IMG/VR virus record: IMGVR_UViG_3300032245_001150
Coordinates: 1-27,294 of that record
Strand: one strand, 5' to 3'
Source of the DNA: a virus
DNA: 27,294 nt
Shown here: in pieces, positions 8,115 to 27,294 of the stretch
Layout: every line of letters begins with the position of its first letter
Position numbering within the stretch: the first letter of the stretch is position 1
The notes under the pieces: generated by a model
The model's input: only the letters and a program-made list of their open reading frames with translations
Told to the model about the DNA's origin: nothing
Databases searched by the model: none
Position numbers and translations under genes: made by a program

Positions 8115-8294
8115 TTACTCCTTATTGCCGTCAAGATACGTATTGAGTGCGTGCAAGATGTCATCCATTGATTGTTGTAATCGTGCGGCCTCCCGGTCAT
8201 CCCCTCGGTGCTTGGCTCGCTCGCAGAGGTATTGAGCGATTACGATTGCAGTAACTGCGGTTTTAATCGGATCCCTGTAGCGTGATAATTTCAT
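8115..8294 (-). CDS. Small unknown early protein, 59 residues
   Basis: Translation from ATG 8294 to TAA 8115 gives a helical protein starting MKLSRYRDPIKTAV. A mildly hydrophobic helix (about 11-24) is followed by a charged helix (RAKHRGDDREAARLQQ). The start carries the shared leader (copy A) with AAAGGAGCAACG, which is the strongest evidence that this short frame is a real gene. I recognise no family. Confidence 0.82.
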   Translation of the reverse strand: MKLSRYRDPIKTAVTAIVIAQYLCERAKHRGDDREAARLQQSMDDILHALNTYLDGNKE

Positions 8295-8350
8295 TGCCGT
8301 TGCTCCTTTATATCGAGGCCGATCCCTATGACCGGCCGTGCGACCGTATA
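8293..8350 (-). repeat. Repeated stem-loop leader, copy A
   Basis: On the transcript side, GGCCGGUC (8330-8337) pairs with GAUCGGCC (8317-8324) around the loop AUAGG. The sequence then runs CUCGAUAUAAAGGAGCAACGG to the ATG at 8294. The stem is identical in all four copies while the loop changes. One pair is G·U, which forms in the mRNA but would be a C-A mismatch in the opposite strand. Confidence 0.85.
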
Positions 8351-8354
8351 AATA

Positions 8355-8789
8355 TTATTTCGTCCAATATCGGAATGTGCGTGAATCAGTAGAATATTGC
8401 TCCGGATCGAGTGCCGCAATAATAAAACTCTCGAGTTCCTCGCTCGCACATCCTGCATAGATCCGAGCGCTATATACTTGCTGTTCGATGTCGTTTGCCT
8501 CCATCATTAGCGCAAATAATCGGTGTACCTCATTCCATAGATTTGGCATTGAGATCCCGGTGCTCTCATATTTAACCAGCTCCGATTTTGTTAACTCATA
8601 TACGGCCTCAAGTGCCTTTGCGTCACATCCTCCATTAGCAGATTTAAAATCCTCGAGCCGTTGCTGTTTTATCTTCCATACTCCCTGCGCTCCCTTTAGT
8701 GCCTCCTCGAGTAATGCGATCTTTGCCACTACTCCCTCCGGAGTGAATTCTTGGCATCCGAGCCGTTGCTGTGTCGTGCGATCTTCCAT
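8355..8789 (-). CDS. Unknown early protein (leader-associated)
   Basis: A 144-residue, mainly helical, acidic protein. Residues about 18-55 form a long charged helix (VVAKIALLEEALKGAQGVWK), probably a coiled coil. Two Cys occur in separate places (GGCDAK, YAGCASEE), too far apart for an obvious zinc site. No family is recognised. It is preceded by leader copy B and lies between two other leader-associated genes of unrelated sequence, which suggests an exchangeable cassette. Confidence 0.72.
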   Translation of the reverse strand: MEDRTTQQRLGCQEFTPEGVVAKIALLEEALKGAQGVWKIKQQRLEDFKSANGGCDAKALEAVYELTKSELVKYESTGISMPNLWNEVHRLFALMMEANDIEQQVYSARIYAGCASEELESFIIAALDPEQYSTDSRTFRYWTK

Positions 8790-8840
8790 TGTCGTTGCTC
8801 CTTTATATCGAGGCCGATCCTTGTGACCGGCCTTGCGACC
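8787..8840 (-). repeat. Repeated stem-loop leader, copy B
   Basis: GGCCGGUC (8825-8832) pairs with GAUCGGCC (8812-8819) around the loop ACAAG, followed by the common AUAUAAAGGAGCAACGACA leading to ATG 8789. It is almost identical to copy C over about 50 bp, although the genes that follow are unrelated. Confidence 0.87.
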
Positions 8841-8852
8841 AATTAATAAATC

Positions 8853-9512
8853 CTACTCGGTAATGTCAGGGATTGCGGCCCACCACGGGAGCGACATCTG
8901 ACAAAGTTTTGCATATACCGGTGATAGCATAGCCTCAGCAAAAGAGCTAAAATTAATCGTAATTGATTTATCCATATAAAAACATGATATATCTGCTTTT
9001 ATAGAGATTGCGGTATATGGCTCTGGGATTACAAGAGCCCAGCTAATTTTTGGTGCCTCTCCTGTATGTCGCATAAAATCATGGCATAACGTAACAAGCT
9101 CCCAAGTTTCAGTATAAATCCATGCATTACTAATGGTGTACTCCTCGAGTGCTTGCATAGTAAATAGATAAAGATTTGTAATTGCGTCACCTTCTCCCTC
9201 GATGATTTTATCAGTACGATATCGATAAATTGCATTAATAATCTCATCCATCGATACCGTAATTAATAAATCCTCTTGAGTGCACATATTATAGAGATAA
9301 TCGATATAATCATTTAAGCTCTCGAGCGTACCATTAGCATTATCGAGCCAGCTCCGATATTGTACTGAGCTAATCATCGGGAGCTCTGCGGGATCCTCCT
9401 CCATCGTAAATGCACGGACTGCAGTAGTAATTTGTTGATTTTTTAAAATCTTATTACAGCTGACATTGAATGATTTTTCGAGTACCTTGCTGATAGTTGA
9501 TTTACGTGCCAT
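8853..9512 (-). CDS. Unknown early protein, AT-rich gene
   Basis: A 219-residue acidic protein. It has a helical N-terminus with a basic start (MARKSTISKVLEKSF), a helical middle part (about 50-150) and a β-rich C-terminal third with Trp/Pro motifs (ISWALVIPEPYTAISIKAD, LPWWAAIPD). I recognise no family. The gene looks more AT-rich than its neighbours and has few of the GGCC/CTCGAG words common elsewhere, a sign of recent acquisition. Leader copy C lies directly upstream. Confidence 0.72.
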   Translation of the reverse strand: MARKSTISKVLEKSFNVSCNKILKNQQITTAVRAFTMEEDPAELPMISSVQYRSWLDNANGTLESLNDYIDYLYNMCTQEDLLITVSMDEIINAIYRYRTDKIIEGEGDAITNLYLFTMQALEEYTISNAWIYTETWELVTLCHDFMRHTGEAPKISWALVIPEPYTAISIKADISCFYMDKSITINFSSFAEAMLSPVYAKLCQMSLPWWAAIPDITE

Positions 9513-9567
9513 TGTCGTTGCTCCTTTATATCGAGGCCGATCCTTGTGACCGGCCGTGCGACCGTAT
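9510..9567 (-). repeat. Repeated stem-loop leader, copy C
   Basis: GGCCGGUC (9548-9555) pairs with GAUCGGCC (9535-9542) around the loop ACAAG. The common ribosome-binding segment AAAGGAGCAACGACA follows, then ATG 9512. The conserved GGUCGCACGGCC upstream of the stem is shared with copy A. Confidence 0.87.
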
Positions 9568-9573
9568 AGATAA

Positions 9574-9867
9574 TTAAGCTAGCTTGCATTCCTCGCATTG
9601 GCAGATAGATCCGAAATACTGATGGATGATACCGTCATCGTTGTCATAGTCATCATCGTTACTATCATCGTCACCAAAAGAAAATTCTACCAATTCCATA
9701 AACCGAGCCAGAGCCTCCTCATACGATTTTGACGTGGTCATGAGCTCAGGTACTCGTGCGGCATTGACCGGATCTCCTGCGCTCCGGAGCGCTTGTTGTA
9801 CCGCACCTGCGATCGCAAATATGTTGCCATCGAGGTTTATTGCGTTAATCGTTGGTTTGCTTGTCAT
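9574..9867 (-). CDS. Small acidic phage protein (N-DGN-FA-I type)
   Basis: A 97-residue protein. Residues 5-60 (INLDGNIFAIAGAVQQALRS ... YEEALARFMELVEF) match a small early protein I have seen in many tailed phages, with a (N/D)-x-D-G-N-x-F-x-I-x-G core; its function is unknown. A very acidic Asp/Asn tract (about 65-78) follows, then a C-terminal CQCEEC cysteine cluster that could bind metal. The acidic tract could mimic DNA. Leader copy D precedes the start at 9867. Confidence 0.75.
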   Translation of the reverse strand: MTSKPTINAINLDGNIFAIAGAVQQALRSAGDPVNAARVPELMTTSKSYEEALARFMELVEFSFGDDDSNDDDYDNDDGIIHQYFGSICQCEECKLA

Positions 9868-9915
9868 TATCGTTGCTCCTTTATATCGAGGCCGATCCGG
9901 ATGACCGGCCTCGCT
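9865..9915 (-). repeat. Repeated stem-loop leader, copy D
   Basis: GGCCGGUC (9903-9910) pairs with GAUCGGCC (9890-9897) around the loop AUCCG, followed by AUAUAAAGGAGCAACGAUA and ATG 9867. A shortened relative, only the AGGAGCAACGACA part without the stem, precedes the first early gene (10170-10188). Confidence 0.85.
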
Positions 9916-9926
9916 GATTACTTATA

Positions 9927-10172
9927 CTATCGATTGTTATCCCGTGGTACCATTTGGCCGTCATCTGTCATCATGTATATGACCGATTCTTTTTGGCGCT
10001 TTGCGGACTCGGATGAGATCTCCTCGGTGCGCTTTGCGGCCTCTGCTGCGGCCTCTGCTTTGAGTTTCTTATTCCGAGCTCGTGTTATCATTTTCTTATC
10101 GTATGTTGATAACTCGTGGTGTACCCAAATCCCTAATTCCTCGATGTGGCGATACGTTTTGTGAAAGCTCAT
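9927..10172 (-). CDS. First gene of the early unit, small charged protein
   Basis: An 81-residue protein with a strongly charged, Ala/Lys/Glu-rich middle helix (about 28-62, KKLKAEAAAEAAKRTEEISS), probably a coiled coil, and a short polar tail. No family is recognised. It is the first gene after the strong early promoter, with TATAGGAGCAACGACA before its ATG, so it should be among the earliest and most strongly made proteins. Host take-over is a reasonable but unproven role. Confidence 0.75.
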   Translation of the reverse strand: MSFHKTYRHIEELGIWVHHELSTYDKKMITRARNKKLKAEAAAEAAKRTEEISSESAKRQKESVIYMMTDDGQMVPRDNNR

Positions 10173-10211
10173 TGTCGTTGCTCCTATAAATACTCTTATC
10201 TAACCTCCCTT

Positions 10212-10240
10212 ATTATATGATATATTACGTATCTTGTAAA
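10212..10240 (-). promoter_or_regulatory. Strong σ70-type early promoter
   Basis: On the minus strand TTTACA (10235-10240), a 17-nt spacer and TATAAT (10212-10217) match the consensus at 11 of 12 positions with ideal spacing. It lies about 40 bp before the first early gene. A second TATAAT on the same strand (10246-10251) has no good -35 box. Confidence 0.88.
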
Positions 10241-10259
10241 GTACTATTATACGCAATTT

Positions 10260-10281
10260 GGGGTGAGTTTTGGGTGAGTTT
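10260..10281. promoter_or_regulatory. Tandem operator-like repeat between divergent promoters
   Basis: GGGTGAGTTT occurs twice, at 10261-10270 and 10272-10281, an 11-bp period or about one helical turn. The second copy overlaps the -35 box of the plus-strand promoter, and both lie just upstream of the early promoter. This is a natural site for a dimeric regulator such as one of the two RHH proteins; which protein binds cannot be read from the sequence. Confidence 0.6.
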
Positions 10282-10308
10282 GACAGCAATTTTAATATCG
10301 TTTATACT
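10280..10308 (+). promoter_or_regulatory. Strong σ70-type promoter on the strand opposite all genes
   Basis: TTGACA (10280-10285), a 17-nt spacer and TATACT (10303-10308) match the consensus at 11 of 12 positions. It is divergent from the early promoter, about 40 bp away. No plus-strand gene follows; the transcript would meet the terminator hairpin at 10374-10424 after about 110 nt. Confidence 0.8.
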
Positions 10309-10314
10309 CGAGGC

Positions 10315-10424
10315 AAGCTTGCAATCGTTTGTGATATCTGTGCCATCACTCGGATTACAAAGCTGAATAACGTACAGCAATCCTCCCGTATGTATCGATT
10401 AAATACGGGAGGATTACTGTTTTA
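10315..10424 (+). ncRNA. Predicted small structured RNA of about 110 nt
   Basis: It starts about 7 nt after the -10 box and ends at an intrinsic terminator. The 5' part can fold into one long interrupted hairpin: AGCTT (10316-10320) with AAGCT (10360-10364), GCAATC (10321-10326) with GATTAC (10353-10358, one mismatch), and GTGAT (10331-10335) with ATCAC (10345-10349) around a 9-nt loop. The 3' part is the terminator stem with TTTT. No credible reading frame lies inside. I recognise no known RNA family. Its terminator stem contains CCUCCC, complementary to Shine-Dalgarno sequences, so pairing with mRNAs is possible. If RNA polymerase reads through, the transcript is antisense to the end of the late unit. 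Confidence 0.6.
10374..10424 (+). terminator. Terminator hairpin, probably used from both sides
   Basis: Stem 10374-10391 with 10403-10420 and an 11-nt loop. On the plus strand there is one C-A mismatch and the stem is followed by TTTT (10420-10423), which ends the small RNA. On the minus strand the mismatch becomes a U·G pair, so all 18 pairs form, but only the weak tract ACGTTATT follows; there it would close the late unit after the gene ending at 10443. Confidence 0.75.
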
Positions 10425-10442
10425 TAAATCTATAGAATTATC

Positions 10443-10760
10443 TTATTGCGGAGGATCCGGCCAATCCGCATATCCCCAGCCAGCAATTTCGACTAGCTCC
10501 GGAAAATTGCGGAGCTCCTGCCGATACGCTCGCCACTGCATTACATCCGGACTCGATAGTGGTACATCAGGGAGTTGCGTCCAATCGGATGCCAGCAGTT
10601 TATTATCACGCTCGAGCCGCAGTGCGTCCATTGCCTGCGCTAATGTATAGGGTGCCTCGAGTACCTCGCTCCCGGCCGGAGGCTCGAGGTATTGATTGCC
10701 AAATTCATCATAGAATGATATCGAAATTTCATCCGGATTATAAATTTTAAAAATAATCAT
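10443..10760 (-). CDS. Tail-fibre assembly/chaperone-like protein
   Basis: A 105-residue protein. Residues about 45-90 (LRLERDNKLLASDWTQLPDV, then PLSSP and WRAYRQELRNFPE) match the R-x-x-x-L-x-x-(S/T)-D-W-T-Q-x-P-D ... A-W-x-x-Y-R-Q-x-L-R motif found in many small proteins encoded after tail fibres (tail fibre assembly/XkdW/DUF4376 group). Its N-terminal β part fits a fibre-tip or chaperone segment. It is the last late gene, directly after the C1q-like fibre gene with a 4-bp overlap, and precedes the terminator hairpin. Confidence 0.72.
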   Translation of the reverse strand: MIIFKIYNPDEISISFYDEFGNQYLEPPAGSEVLEAPYTLAQAMDALRLERDNKLLASDWTQLPDVPLSSPDVMQWRAYRQELRNFPELVEIAGWGYADWPDPPQ

Positions 10761-24868: not shown

Positions 24869-25528
24869 TCACTCCATTTTTTCGATTACCCAGCCACAGA
24901 ATTCACCCATTTGAAAAAACTTCACGGGAGCTCCCGGGAGGATATCCGGATTAATTGGGCGCTGATATCCTGATAGTGAAATTTCTTTTTTGATGATATC
25001 CTCCGGTGACGCTCCCTGCATCAACTTCCAATCCATCGGGAGCCGTCGCAGACAGGTGCCGATGTATCCGGCCGGAGTGATAATTTTATCGATAATTACA
25101 AGCGCTCCTCCGGCCTTGCATTTACTATAAAGATTTGCTAAAAACTCCCTGCGCTCATTAATCGGTAAAAACATAATTGTCAGCATACAGACCGCAAAAT
25201 CATATTCTTGATAATCATAGTCAACTGCGTTGCATACAATCGGGATCCCGGGTGCGTCATACTTTAGCATCATATCGGCGCTGTTATCAATCGCAACTAA
25301 ATGAATATTGCGAGCCTCGATAATCGATGCGAGCGATCTCCCGATATTGCCGGTGCTCGCTCCGATATCATACATGATGCCATCCTGCGGGATGTAGTGA
25401 CGGCCGATGTGCGCAACAGCGTGCGTTGCGAGATCGTACCACGGGAGTTGCTCCCTCACATGAGAGTCAAAGTTGTTCGCAATCTCGGTGCTCTTAAACG
25501 TCCATTGGCTCGGAATTTTCATGTTCAT
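24869..25528 (-). CDS. CmoA-like class I SAM-dependent methyltransferase
   Basis: A 219-residue methyltransferase. Motif I is YDIGASTGNIG (about 54-64), motif II LVAIDNSADMM (about 77-87), then VCMLTIMFLPINERREFL and the post-core AGGALVIIDKI. The DNS-(A/P)-x-M, L-x-P-x-E-R and G-G-A-L-V-(L/I)-x-x-K signatures are those of the CmoA family, which makes carboxy-SAM for tRNA wobble modification. Here it could modify tRNA, a nucleotide or another small substrate. It overlaps the C5-methyltransferase gene by ATGA and lies immediately before TerS. The family is fairly sure; the substrate is not known. Confidence 0.82.
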   Translation of the reverse strand: MNMKIPSQWTFKSTEIANNFDSHVREQLPWYDLATHAVAHIGRHYIPQDGIMYDIGASTGNIGRSLASIIEARNIHLVAIDNSADMMLKYDAPGIPIVCNAVDYDYQEYDFAVCMLTIMFLPINERREFLANLYSKCKAGGALVIIDKIITPAGYIGTCLRRLPMDWKLMQGASPEDIIKKEISLSGYQRPINPDILPGAPVKFFQMGEFCGWVIEKME

Positions 25529-26568
25529 ATATTTATCCTCGATAGTATATAGTCATCGATGGTACGTGCGATTTGTTTCATCATGACCGGAGGCACAGCC
25601 CTTGCGATCCGCTCCACCTGTTGGATATAACTCCCAGTAATAATAAAATCATCCGGGAATGAGCTTAATCGCTTAAGCTCGGATATAGAGAAATTACGGC
25701 ACTGTGTTGGATGCACAACCGTTGCGAGCGCAAAGCTGTTAATTTTTGTCGTAATCGTTGGGCACGGGAGCTCCGGGATTGGGCGCTTAAGCGAAAAATA
25801 TTTATCACTCGTGCTCCCTATTTTCATCTTATGCCATTCTTTACCGGTCGCAAACGCAGATATATCCATATCCGGATGCTCATCTGATAAATCAATCGCA
25901 TCGTTTATTGAGTAGAAATAATCAAACGGATCCGGATGTATTGGCGCAATATTAATATCCTCCCGAACACCAATAAAAATAGTACGCTGACGTGCTTGCG
26001 GTACACCGAGCCACTGCGAGTTAAGGAGCTTGCAAGATACTCGATATCCGGCCGATTTGAGCGCTGATAAAATATCTAAAAAATATCCCTTTGCCGATCC
26101 TTTGACAAGGCCGGATACATTTTCCGCAACAAATACCTTTGGCTGAATTTCCGTAATTAATCGCACATACTCATAAAATAAATCATCAGTGCGCTGTACC
26201 GTATCCGAGTATTTTTTCACCTTGCCCCACGCATCCTCCCGTTTGCCGGCCGTACTGAAACTTGCGCAGGGAGGGGAGCCGTCAAACAAATCTAATTCAC
26301 CCGGCCTCATATTAATTGCCTCGAGGATATCGCTCCCGGATACCGTGCGTATATCTCGAGTATCAAGGATTGTATCAGGATGATTGATTTTATAAACCTC
26401 TTGGGCCGCAGGTATAAACTCATTAGCCCAAAGCACTTTATACCCAGCCATCTTGTATCCGAGGCTCGAGCCTCCGCATCCGGAAAATGTTGAAATAACA
26501 TTGTATCCGTTGTGCGGCAGTTTTTTAATCTCCTCCATCGAGGGGATTATATAGGGAGGTTTGGTCAT
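25525..26568 (-). CDS. DNA (cytosine-5) methyltransferase
   Basis: A 347-residue C5-MTase. Motif I STFSGCGGSS (26-35), motif IV DGSPPCASFS (96-105) with catalytic Cys101, motif VI VAENV (147-151), motif VIII QARQR (191-195), a short target-recognition region (about 205-265), and motifs IX-X (SISELKRLSSFPDDF ... ARAVPP). No matching restriction endonuclease is nearby, so it is a solitary MTase, likely protecting the phage or marking its DNA. The start at 26568 makes an ATGA overlap with the ParB-like gene; an ATG at 26586 lies inside that gene. The recognition sequence is not readable from the protein; CTCGAG, strongly over-represented here, is a candidate. Confidence 0.94.
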   Translation of the reverse strand: MTKPPYIIPSMEEIKKLPHNGYNVISTFSGCGGSSLGYKMAGYKVLWANEFIPAAQEVYKINHPDTILDTRDIRTVSGSDILEAINMRPGELDLFDGSPPCASFSTAGKREDAWGKVKKYSDTVQRTDDLFYEYVRLITEIQPKVFVAENVSGLVKGSAKGYFLDILSALKSAGYRVSCKLLNSQWLGVPQARQRTIFIGVREDINIAPIHPDPFDYFYSINDAIDLSDEHPDMDISAFATGKEWHKMKIGSTSDKYFSLKRPIPELPCPTITTKINSFALATVVHPTQCRNFSISELKRLSSFPDDFIITGSYIQQVERIARAVPPVMMKQIARTIDDYILSRINI

Positions 26569-27068
26569 GATGATTTGCCAGACCACTTATATCCGCACTT
26601 GGGGCACTTGTGCTCTGTATCGATATCCTCATCAAACTCCGGAAAATCTTCAACAGGGATTGGCATCTTTATCGTATCATTGAGATCCGATAAAATTTTA
26701 TCAAGATCGTATCCAAGGCCGGATAAATACTCACTGCCAAAATCTACCTGCAAAATGTCATTATCCCAAATACCTGCCATCCCCTCCGGAGCGTTGTCGA
26801 TAATAATAAATCGCTTGCGTTGCTCCTCTGTAATCCCTCGAGCTACTCGCACCCACGTATCAGGGAGCTCCGTGTACCCTAATTTTTTGCAAGCCGTATA
26901 GCGCTGATTACCTCCGATGATTATATTTTTTTCATCGATGATAATCGGCCGTAATTCCATAAAGAGCGGATCACGATCGATAGAGGTGCATAGCATGTCC
27001 AACGCTTGTGGCGTAATTTTACGAGGATTTGATTTGTTCGGTTTTAATTGACCGATCGGGATACTCAT
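26565..27068 (-). CDS. ParB/Srx-domain protein with C-terminal zinc finger half-site
   Basis: A 167-residue protein. Residues about 1-90 are a ParB-N/Srx domain: IGQLKPNKSNPRKIT, LRPIIIDEKNIIIGGNQRYT (the G-G-N-Q-R nucleotide/phosphate motif) and ELPDTWVRV. A helical part follows, then HKCPKCGYKWSG near the C-terminus, one CxxC knuckle that may bind zinc with the nearby His or as a dimer. Such genes are frequently paired with phage DNA methyltransferases and terminases; some have nicking or CTPase activity. It overlaps both neighbours by ATGA and so belongs to one translation-coupled set with the methyltransferases. Confidence 0.85.
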   Translation of the reverse strand: MSIPIGQLKPNKSNPRKITPQALDMLCTSIDRDPLFMELRPIIIDEKNIIIGGNQRYTACKKLGYTELPDTWVRVARGITEEQRKRFIIIDNAPEGMAGIWDNDILQVDFGSEYLSGLGYDLDKILSDLNDTIKMPIPVEDFPEFDEDIDTEHKCPKCGYKWSGKSS

Positions 27069-27244
27069 AGATTAATACCTTTATTCGTAATAACTCGCAA
27101 CACGACATTTACGATTGCGAGGCCTGTTGTCAAATAGGGTGCGACAGACTCGAGCTCCGGGAGTGGTAGCACGGCCGATATGATTACAGCGACGATCGTG
27201 AGGATATTTACCCAGATGATTTTAGATTGATACCATGGTTTCAT
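27065..27244 (-). CDS. Small holin-like membrane protein, 59 residues
   Basis: Translation from ATG 27244 to TGA 27065 gives 59 residues. The N-terminus is MKPWYQSKIIWVNILTIVAV, with a K-P-W-(Y/W)-x-S-K-x-(I/T)-W-x-N start that I know from small phage membrane proteins. The first hydrophobic helix is about 9-27; a second weaker one is about 37-52 (YLTTGLAIVNVVLRV). The layout, two short helices with a basic C-terminus and a place next to XhlA and amidase, fits a class II holin. AGGAG precedes the ATG, and the stop overlaps the ParB-like start by ATGA. The contig ends cut this gene, so it is complete only at the right end. Confidence 0.82.
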   Translation of the reverse strand: MKPWYQSKIIWVNILTIVAVIISAVLPLPELESVAPYLTTGLAIVNVVLRVITNKGINL

Positions 27245-27294
27245 CGTTATACTCCTATAAAATACTTCAAGATAATTGGTATTACAAACGCACA
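27172..27294. repeat. Terminal direct repeat, right copy
   Basis: Exact second copy of bases 1-123. It holds the first 24 codons of the holin-like gene, its ribosome-binding site and the 3' end of the XhlA-like gene. The unique genome length is therefore about 27,171 bp. Confidence 0.97.

Follow-up and report, generated by a model that had tools for sequence, protein, structure and literature searches.

Most of the regulatory RNAs known from phages were found in a small number of cultured ones (lambda, P22, P1 and P4). In Gram-positive bacteria, small RNAs with C-rich loops, such as RsaE, are host-encoded, and the loop is complementary to the Shine-Dalgarno regions of several mRNAs. The c4 RNA of phages P1 and P7, as described in PMC12197685 (citing Citron and Schuster 1990), has hairpin loops complementary to a ribosome-binding site and blocks translation. 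Lambda OOP, a short RNA from the opposite strand, has a promoter and a terminator of its own and lies beside the early region (PMC12197685; PMC3985674), and lambda pO affects replication through transcription (PMC3985674). Sar RNA of P22 is a short phage antisense RNA that lowers translation of a phage gene (PMC12197685). The predicted phage RNA described here is conserved and structured, has no Rfam match and is common to many uncultivated small-genome phages.

The late/early gap and its predicted RNA

The window, which is the whole stretch of DNA analyzed here, is a complete IMG/VR virus record of 27,294 nt. The exact 123-bp repeat at its ends (1–123 and 27172–27294) makes it most likely the complete circular genome of an uncultivated phage, 27,171 bp long. 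Three related contigs (G011, G018 and G044) have an overlap of the same length, so the end repeat probably arose in the assembly of a circular or permuted genome. The recognizable genes include those for lysis, dCTP deaminase, a D5/P4-type primase-helicase, early proteins of unknown function, a ParB-like protein, methyltransferase, portal-MuF, capsid and tail. A C-5 cytosine DNA methylase gene and a second methyltransferase-like gene (25525–26586 and 24869–25528) lie upstream of the terminase genes. No tRNA or tmRNA was found in the window, and no repressor or integrase was recognized among the scanned proteins of these small phage genomes. A terminase search of bacterial genomes for the host gave matches of only 28%, two of them in Chloroflexi bins.

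Positions 10173–10442 form the largest gap in the window that looks truly non-coding, and they lie between the last late gene and the first early gene (Table 1). Promoter sites of 11/12 quality number four in the genome, both strands counted (shuffles average 0.63, with a maximum of 2), and two of these four are a back-to-back pair in the gap (+ strand at 10280, − strand at 10240). The gap also holds a short-repeat array whose self-match at lag 11 is 0.48, a value reached in 0 of 2000 shuffles. The same 11-bp period is found upstream of the RNA start in the other lineages with an opposite-strand RNA, and the repeat sequence differs by lineage. The array could be a binding array for a regulator or a replication initiator, or it could be curved DNA.

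The RNA start is assumed to lie 7 nt past the −10 element. In the terminal hairpin (10374–10420), 17 of 18 pairs are Watson-Crick, with a folding energy of −25.4 kcal/mol and z of −7.7; the genome has no second hairpin of this quality, and 5 shuffles gave 0. This hairpin probably also ends the late − strand transcripts. With its TTTT it has the make-up of an intrinsic terminator in the window, the U-run being poor in clade A (defined below). The whole RNA (10315–10428) folds at −37.2 (z of −5.3), mostly owing to the terminal hairpin. We rejected the possibility that the RNA is translated, since it has no start preceded by a Shine-Dalgarno sequence and the relatives have completely different hairpin sequences. 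When the window and five relatives were scanned against Rfam, no family reached gathering score, and a nucleotide search of GenBank phages found no DNA similar to the window.

An earlier note on this DNA had claimed a near-consensus + strand promoter, a strong hairpin with TTTT about 66 nt downstream of the predicted start, no open reading frame fitting the RNA, and all recognizable genes on the opposite strand. These claims hold in the window. The promoter coordinates are right and the 11/12 promoter is kept in relatives, as would be expected of a free-standing phage sRNA gene with its own promoter; the hairpin follows after about 60 nt and is the only one of its quality in the genome; no reading frame has a start signal; and every recognizable gene is on the − strand. 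The further claim that the first half of the RNA folds alone stands in part. As a single sequence its fold is weak (z of −0.7), whereas comparison supports it through the closing stem (p 0.03), which recurs in relatives.

Table 1. Positions of the features of the gap and of the neighboring early region in the window
Feature	Coordinates	Strand	Remarks
Shared early leader copy	8292–8354	−	63-nt repeat
Shared early leader copy	8787–8849	−	63-nt repeat
Shared early leader copy	9510–9572	−	63-nt repeat
Shared early leader copy, AACGAUA-AUG	9865–9927	−	complementary to AUCGUU (6 nt) of the RNA
First early gene with leader GGAGCAACGACA-ATG	9927–10184	−	gene start at 10172
Divergent early promoter, TTTACA-17-TATAAT	10212–10240	−	11/12; predicted to drive the early genes starting at 10172
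Short-repeat array, 11-bp period (CGCAATTTGGG / GTGAGTTTTGG / GTGAGTTTGAC / AGCAATTTTAA)	10250–10308	.	extends into the sRNA promoter
sRNA promoter, TTGACA (10280–10285), 17 nt, TATACT (10303–10308)	10280–10308	+	11/12 consensus
Predicted small RNA, about 110 nt	10315–10424	+	promoter, hairpin; covariance-model match 10311–10425
5′ stem-loop domain SL1, closed by AGCUU/AAGCU	10315–10364	+	closing stem p 0.03; recurs in relatives
Single-stranded linker GAAUAAC, conserved as (A)AAUAAC	10365–10371	+	
Terminal hairpin (18 bp, one mismatch) and TTTT, intrinsic-terminator-like	10374–10424	+	stem covaries in relatives
Last late gene, tail fibre assembly / tail assembly chaperone	10443–10760	−	PF16778 6e-15; phrog_4912

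Conservation of the RNA in relatives

Relatives were taken from IMG/VR by protein searches with the terminase, a minor tail protein alignment and a primase alignment. The searches gave many related contigs, and the junction of late tail genes and early genes is readable where contigs reach it. Gene starts in relatives were called mechanically, and the contigs, being related, do not count as independent. We use the name clade A for the roughly 15 contigs that are relatives of G004. On their opposite strand they have TTGACA-17-TGCTATAAT or a near version of it, a conserved segment of about 60 nt and a long hairpin. At the position of the sRNA promoter, relatives show TTGACA-17-(TGC)TATAAT. G046, G047, G048–G050, G051 and G052 have an opposite-strand start and hairpin at the same position in the gap.

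Relatives preserve the terminal hairpin despite changes in its sequence, and 8 of 15 pairs show two-sided changes. In the window, clade A, G004, G047 and G051 the base of the 5′ stem-loop closes directly before the linker (A)AAUAAC, and this arrangement, taken as a mark of the family, places the window within it. Closing-stem pairing exceeds that of shuffles in the window (p 0.030), L092 of clade A (0.036), G047 (0.018) and G046 (0.024), and the excess is less clear in G051 and G053; p-values near 0.03 are weak because several tests were run. A covariance model built from clade A and G046/G047, with the window left out, matches the window + strand at 10311–10425 over its full length (1–110) with 22.5 bits and an E-value of 0.0024 in 338 kb. 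It gives no further match elsewhere in the window. The same model matches at full length on the coding strand of L163 (G053). L190, L193, L195, L198, L204, L212 and L222 also have a promoter (TTGGCA ... TGATACAAT), a stem-loop and a hairpin in this gap, there on the coding strand; these RNAs were assigned by position and layout, not by the covariance model. A classical U-run follows the hairpin in several of this group, and most clade A RNAs have none.

Some relatives show additional features in this region. In L086–L103 of clade A, the end of the late gene (105 aa) has a coding-strand −10-like TGATATACT at the stop codon. It would give rise to a second RNA, convergent with the first, that stops at the same hairpin and includes a CUCCUUC segment. 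The opposite-strand RNA of L168 (G049) and L169 (G050) contains GAAAGGAGGUGAUG, a perfect Shine-Dalgarno and not an anti-Shine-Dalgarno sequence.

The promoter, 5′ stem-loop, linker, covarying hairpin and model match, with no Rfam family, make it very probable that the window holds a true small-RNA gene belonging to a new phage family. The earlier note had named covarying stems in related phages as a way to check its prediction; in the relatives the stems are conserved or covary, in the same late/early gap. Its idea of a free-standing small RNA with own promoter and terminator thus gains support from the conservation of promoter, stems and position.

Shared early leaders and loop complementarity

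In every lineage, copies of a common leader precede early genes. GGAGCAACGACA-ATG, or a version of it differing by one base, is found at five genes of the window, at four of them inside a 63-nt repeat. This repeat consists of a small hairpin GGCCGGTCACAAGGATCGGCC and the leader AAAGGAGCAACGACA, with the end AAAGGAGCAACG(G/A)CA-ATG; the gene at 10172 is preceded by this leader end too. The repeat looks like a copied expression cassette, of which clade A and L193 have their own versions. In L086–L101 the gene behind the conserved first early leader varies among close contigs (MKFQ.., MNID.., MQHP..), as if the first-early-gene slot were swapped by recombination in the leader.

Long loop-leader matches are found in three lineages. 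The loop of G047 matches an early Shine-Dalgarno region over 11 nt perfectly (AGUUCCUUUCG:CGAAAGGAACU, p 0.003) and another early Shine-Dalgarno region over 10 nt, and both are the best matches in the 27-kb contig. The early leader of L193 is CAGAAAGGAAACGACC-ATG, and the L193 loop gives a perfect 10-nt match before three early genes (GUUUCCUUUC:GAAAGGAAAC, p 0.02). In L195 loop and leader both differ from those of L193 and still match perfectly, over 11 nt (CGGUGCCUUUC:GAAAGGCACCG). In an own-versus-cross permutation over seven lineages, foreign leaders lower the match (p 0.003). The SL1 loop of clade A is U(A/G)UCGCUUUG, and the loop UCGCUUU faces AAAGCGA before several early ATGs. Positional conservation, covariation, the model match and these three long loop-leader matches are the stronger points of this sequence-based analysis.

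Other results weigh against the pairing or limit it. Within clade A, L087 and L088 have a broken loop seed and a retained leader, which counts against pairing, and for most contigs of this clade the per-genome pairing test gives no significant result. Part of the loop-leader signal is a generic anti-Shine-Dalgarno core (CCUUUC). The first own-versus-cross test, which used wobble helices, showed no specificity, and the window's own pairing was weaker than foreign pairing. Gapped duplex energies of the RNA with all window starts were uninformative. In the window the longest match of the RNA to an early leader is 6 nt (AUCGUU, gene starting at 9867), with p 0.63 when all starts are considered, and the RNA fold leaves UCGUU partly paired. 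Since this match is no better than chance, the target in the window is unproven. Over the whole window, the best complementarity to the RNA is 11 nt inside the primase gene, also about chance (about 0.3 expected, by estimate).

Proposed mode of action and comparison with known systems

The gap may be a two-way control region. The divergent − strand promoter would start the early genes, and the + strand promoter would make an untranslated RNA of about 110 nt ending at the hairpin beyond the last late gene. SL1 would serve as an antisense loop pairing with the Shine-Dalgarno/spacer region of the leader shared by the early genes. This pairing would block early-gene translation, and the early genes would be turned down as the RNA accumulates. 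The comparison supports conservation of promoter, stem-loop, linker and hairpin as well as loop-leader matches in relatives; transcription, termination, repression and timing are what we infer from them. We tentatively adopt, as a quite possible reading for the window RNA, a c4-like antisense mechanism in which the stem-loop pairs with Shine-Dalgarno regions common to several early genes. More doubtful is its extension to the family, in which an RNA on either strand of the late/early gap would repress several early genes via the copied leader, loop and leader co-evolving to give a lineage-specific early shut-off. If the pairing is true, it would be a simple RNA-only early-to-late switch, with one RNA acting on several early genes via a copied leader, and the loop-leader matches supply exact sequence pairs.

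The RNA may be real and act otherwise, on host mRNAs, on a host RNA-binding protein or as a decoy, which we consider unlikely. The window loops match no early leader, some loops bear the generic anti-Shine-Dalgarno core and could meet host mRNAs, and the AAUAAC linker, with two A-R-N triplets conserved across lineages, could be an Hfq-like contact. However, in three lineages it is the phage's own early leaders that give the best seed matches. Among the roles proposed in the earlier note, a base-pairing RNA is favored and a decoy less so, the likely targets in relatives being the phage's own early genes; regulation of the divergent promoter is possible. Also improbable in our judgment is a cis element, in which transcription itself matters: the promoter would fire beside an origin of replication or oppose read-through from the late genes, and the RNA would be a by-product. 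Back-to-back promoters around the 11-bp repeat array in AT-rich DNA, the primase-helicase gene and the lambda pO precedent (PMC3985674) would fit such a role. In 5 of 7 genomes the detrended GC-skew minimum falls downstream of the gap, at a distance of no more than about 3 kb, which is only suggestive of an origin. A purely cis role is at odds with the conserved or covarying stems and linker of the RNA itself, and opposing transcription is not a constant feature since the RNA is on the coding strand in some lineages. That placement (L163/G053, L190, L193 and L195) weakens the antisense brake on the late unit that the earlier note had also suggested, and an RNA gene found on either strand favors a product acting in trans.

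We give very little weight to the hairpin being a bidirectional late terminator only, with the + promoter a relic or a weak spurious start. The better U-tract of clade A (GUUAUUUAG) is indeed on the late-gene side, and single-sequence folding of SL1 in the window is not significant. In the window and L127, however, the T-run is on the sRNA side, and a near-perfect promoter kept in many diverged contigs together with a conserved SL1 layout is unexpected of a relic.

Resemblance of the antisense RNA proposed here to the C-rich-loop sRNAs is limited to the CCUUUC loops of relatives, the window RNA having no such loop. Sar is encoded opposite its target and the window RNA is not. As with lambda OOP/pO, the window RNA is short and opposite-strand, has its own promoter and terminator and adjoins the early region. 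OOP overlaps the end of cII and is thereby antisense to it, whereas the window RNA overlaps no early gene; it lies at 10315–10424 inside the gap, between the early start at 10172 and the late end at 10443. With c4 of P1 and P7 it shares being a small phage RNA with a loop directed against a ribosome-binding site, proposed here from matches in relatives; the likeness is in mode of action, and no sequence kinship is claimed. While c4 is processed out of its own operon's leader, has a single target (ant) and serves immunity, members of the window RNA family are read from a separate promoter, in most cases on the opposite strand, and in relatives they probably act on several early genes.
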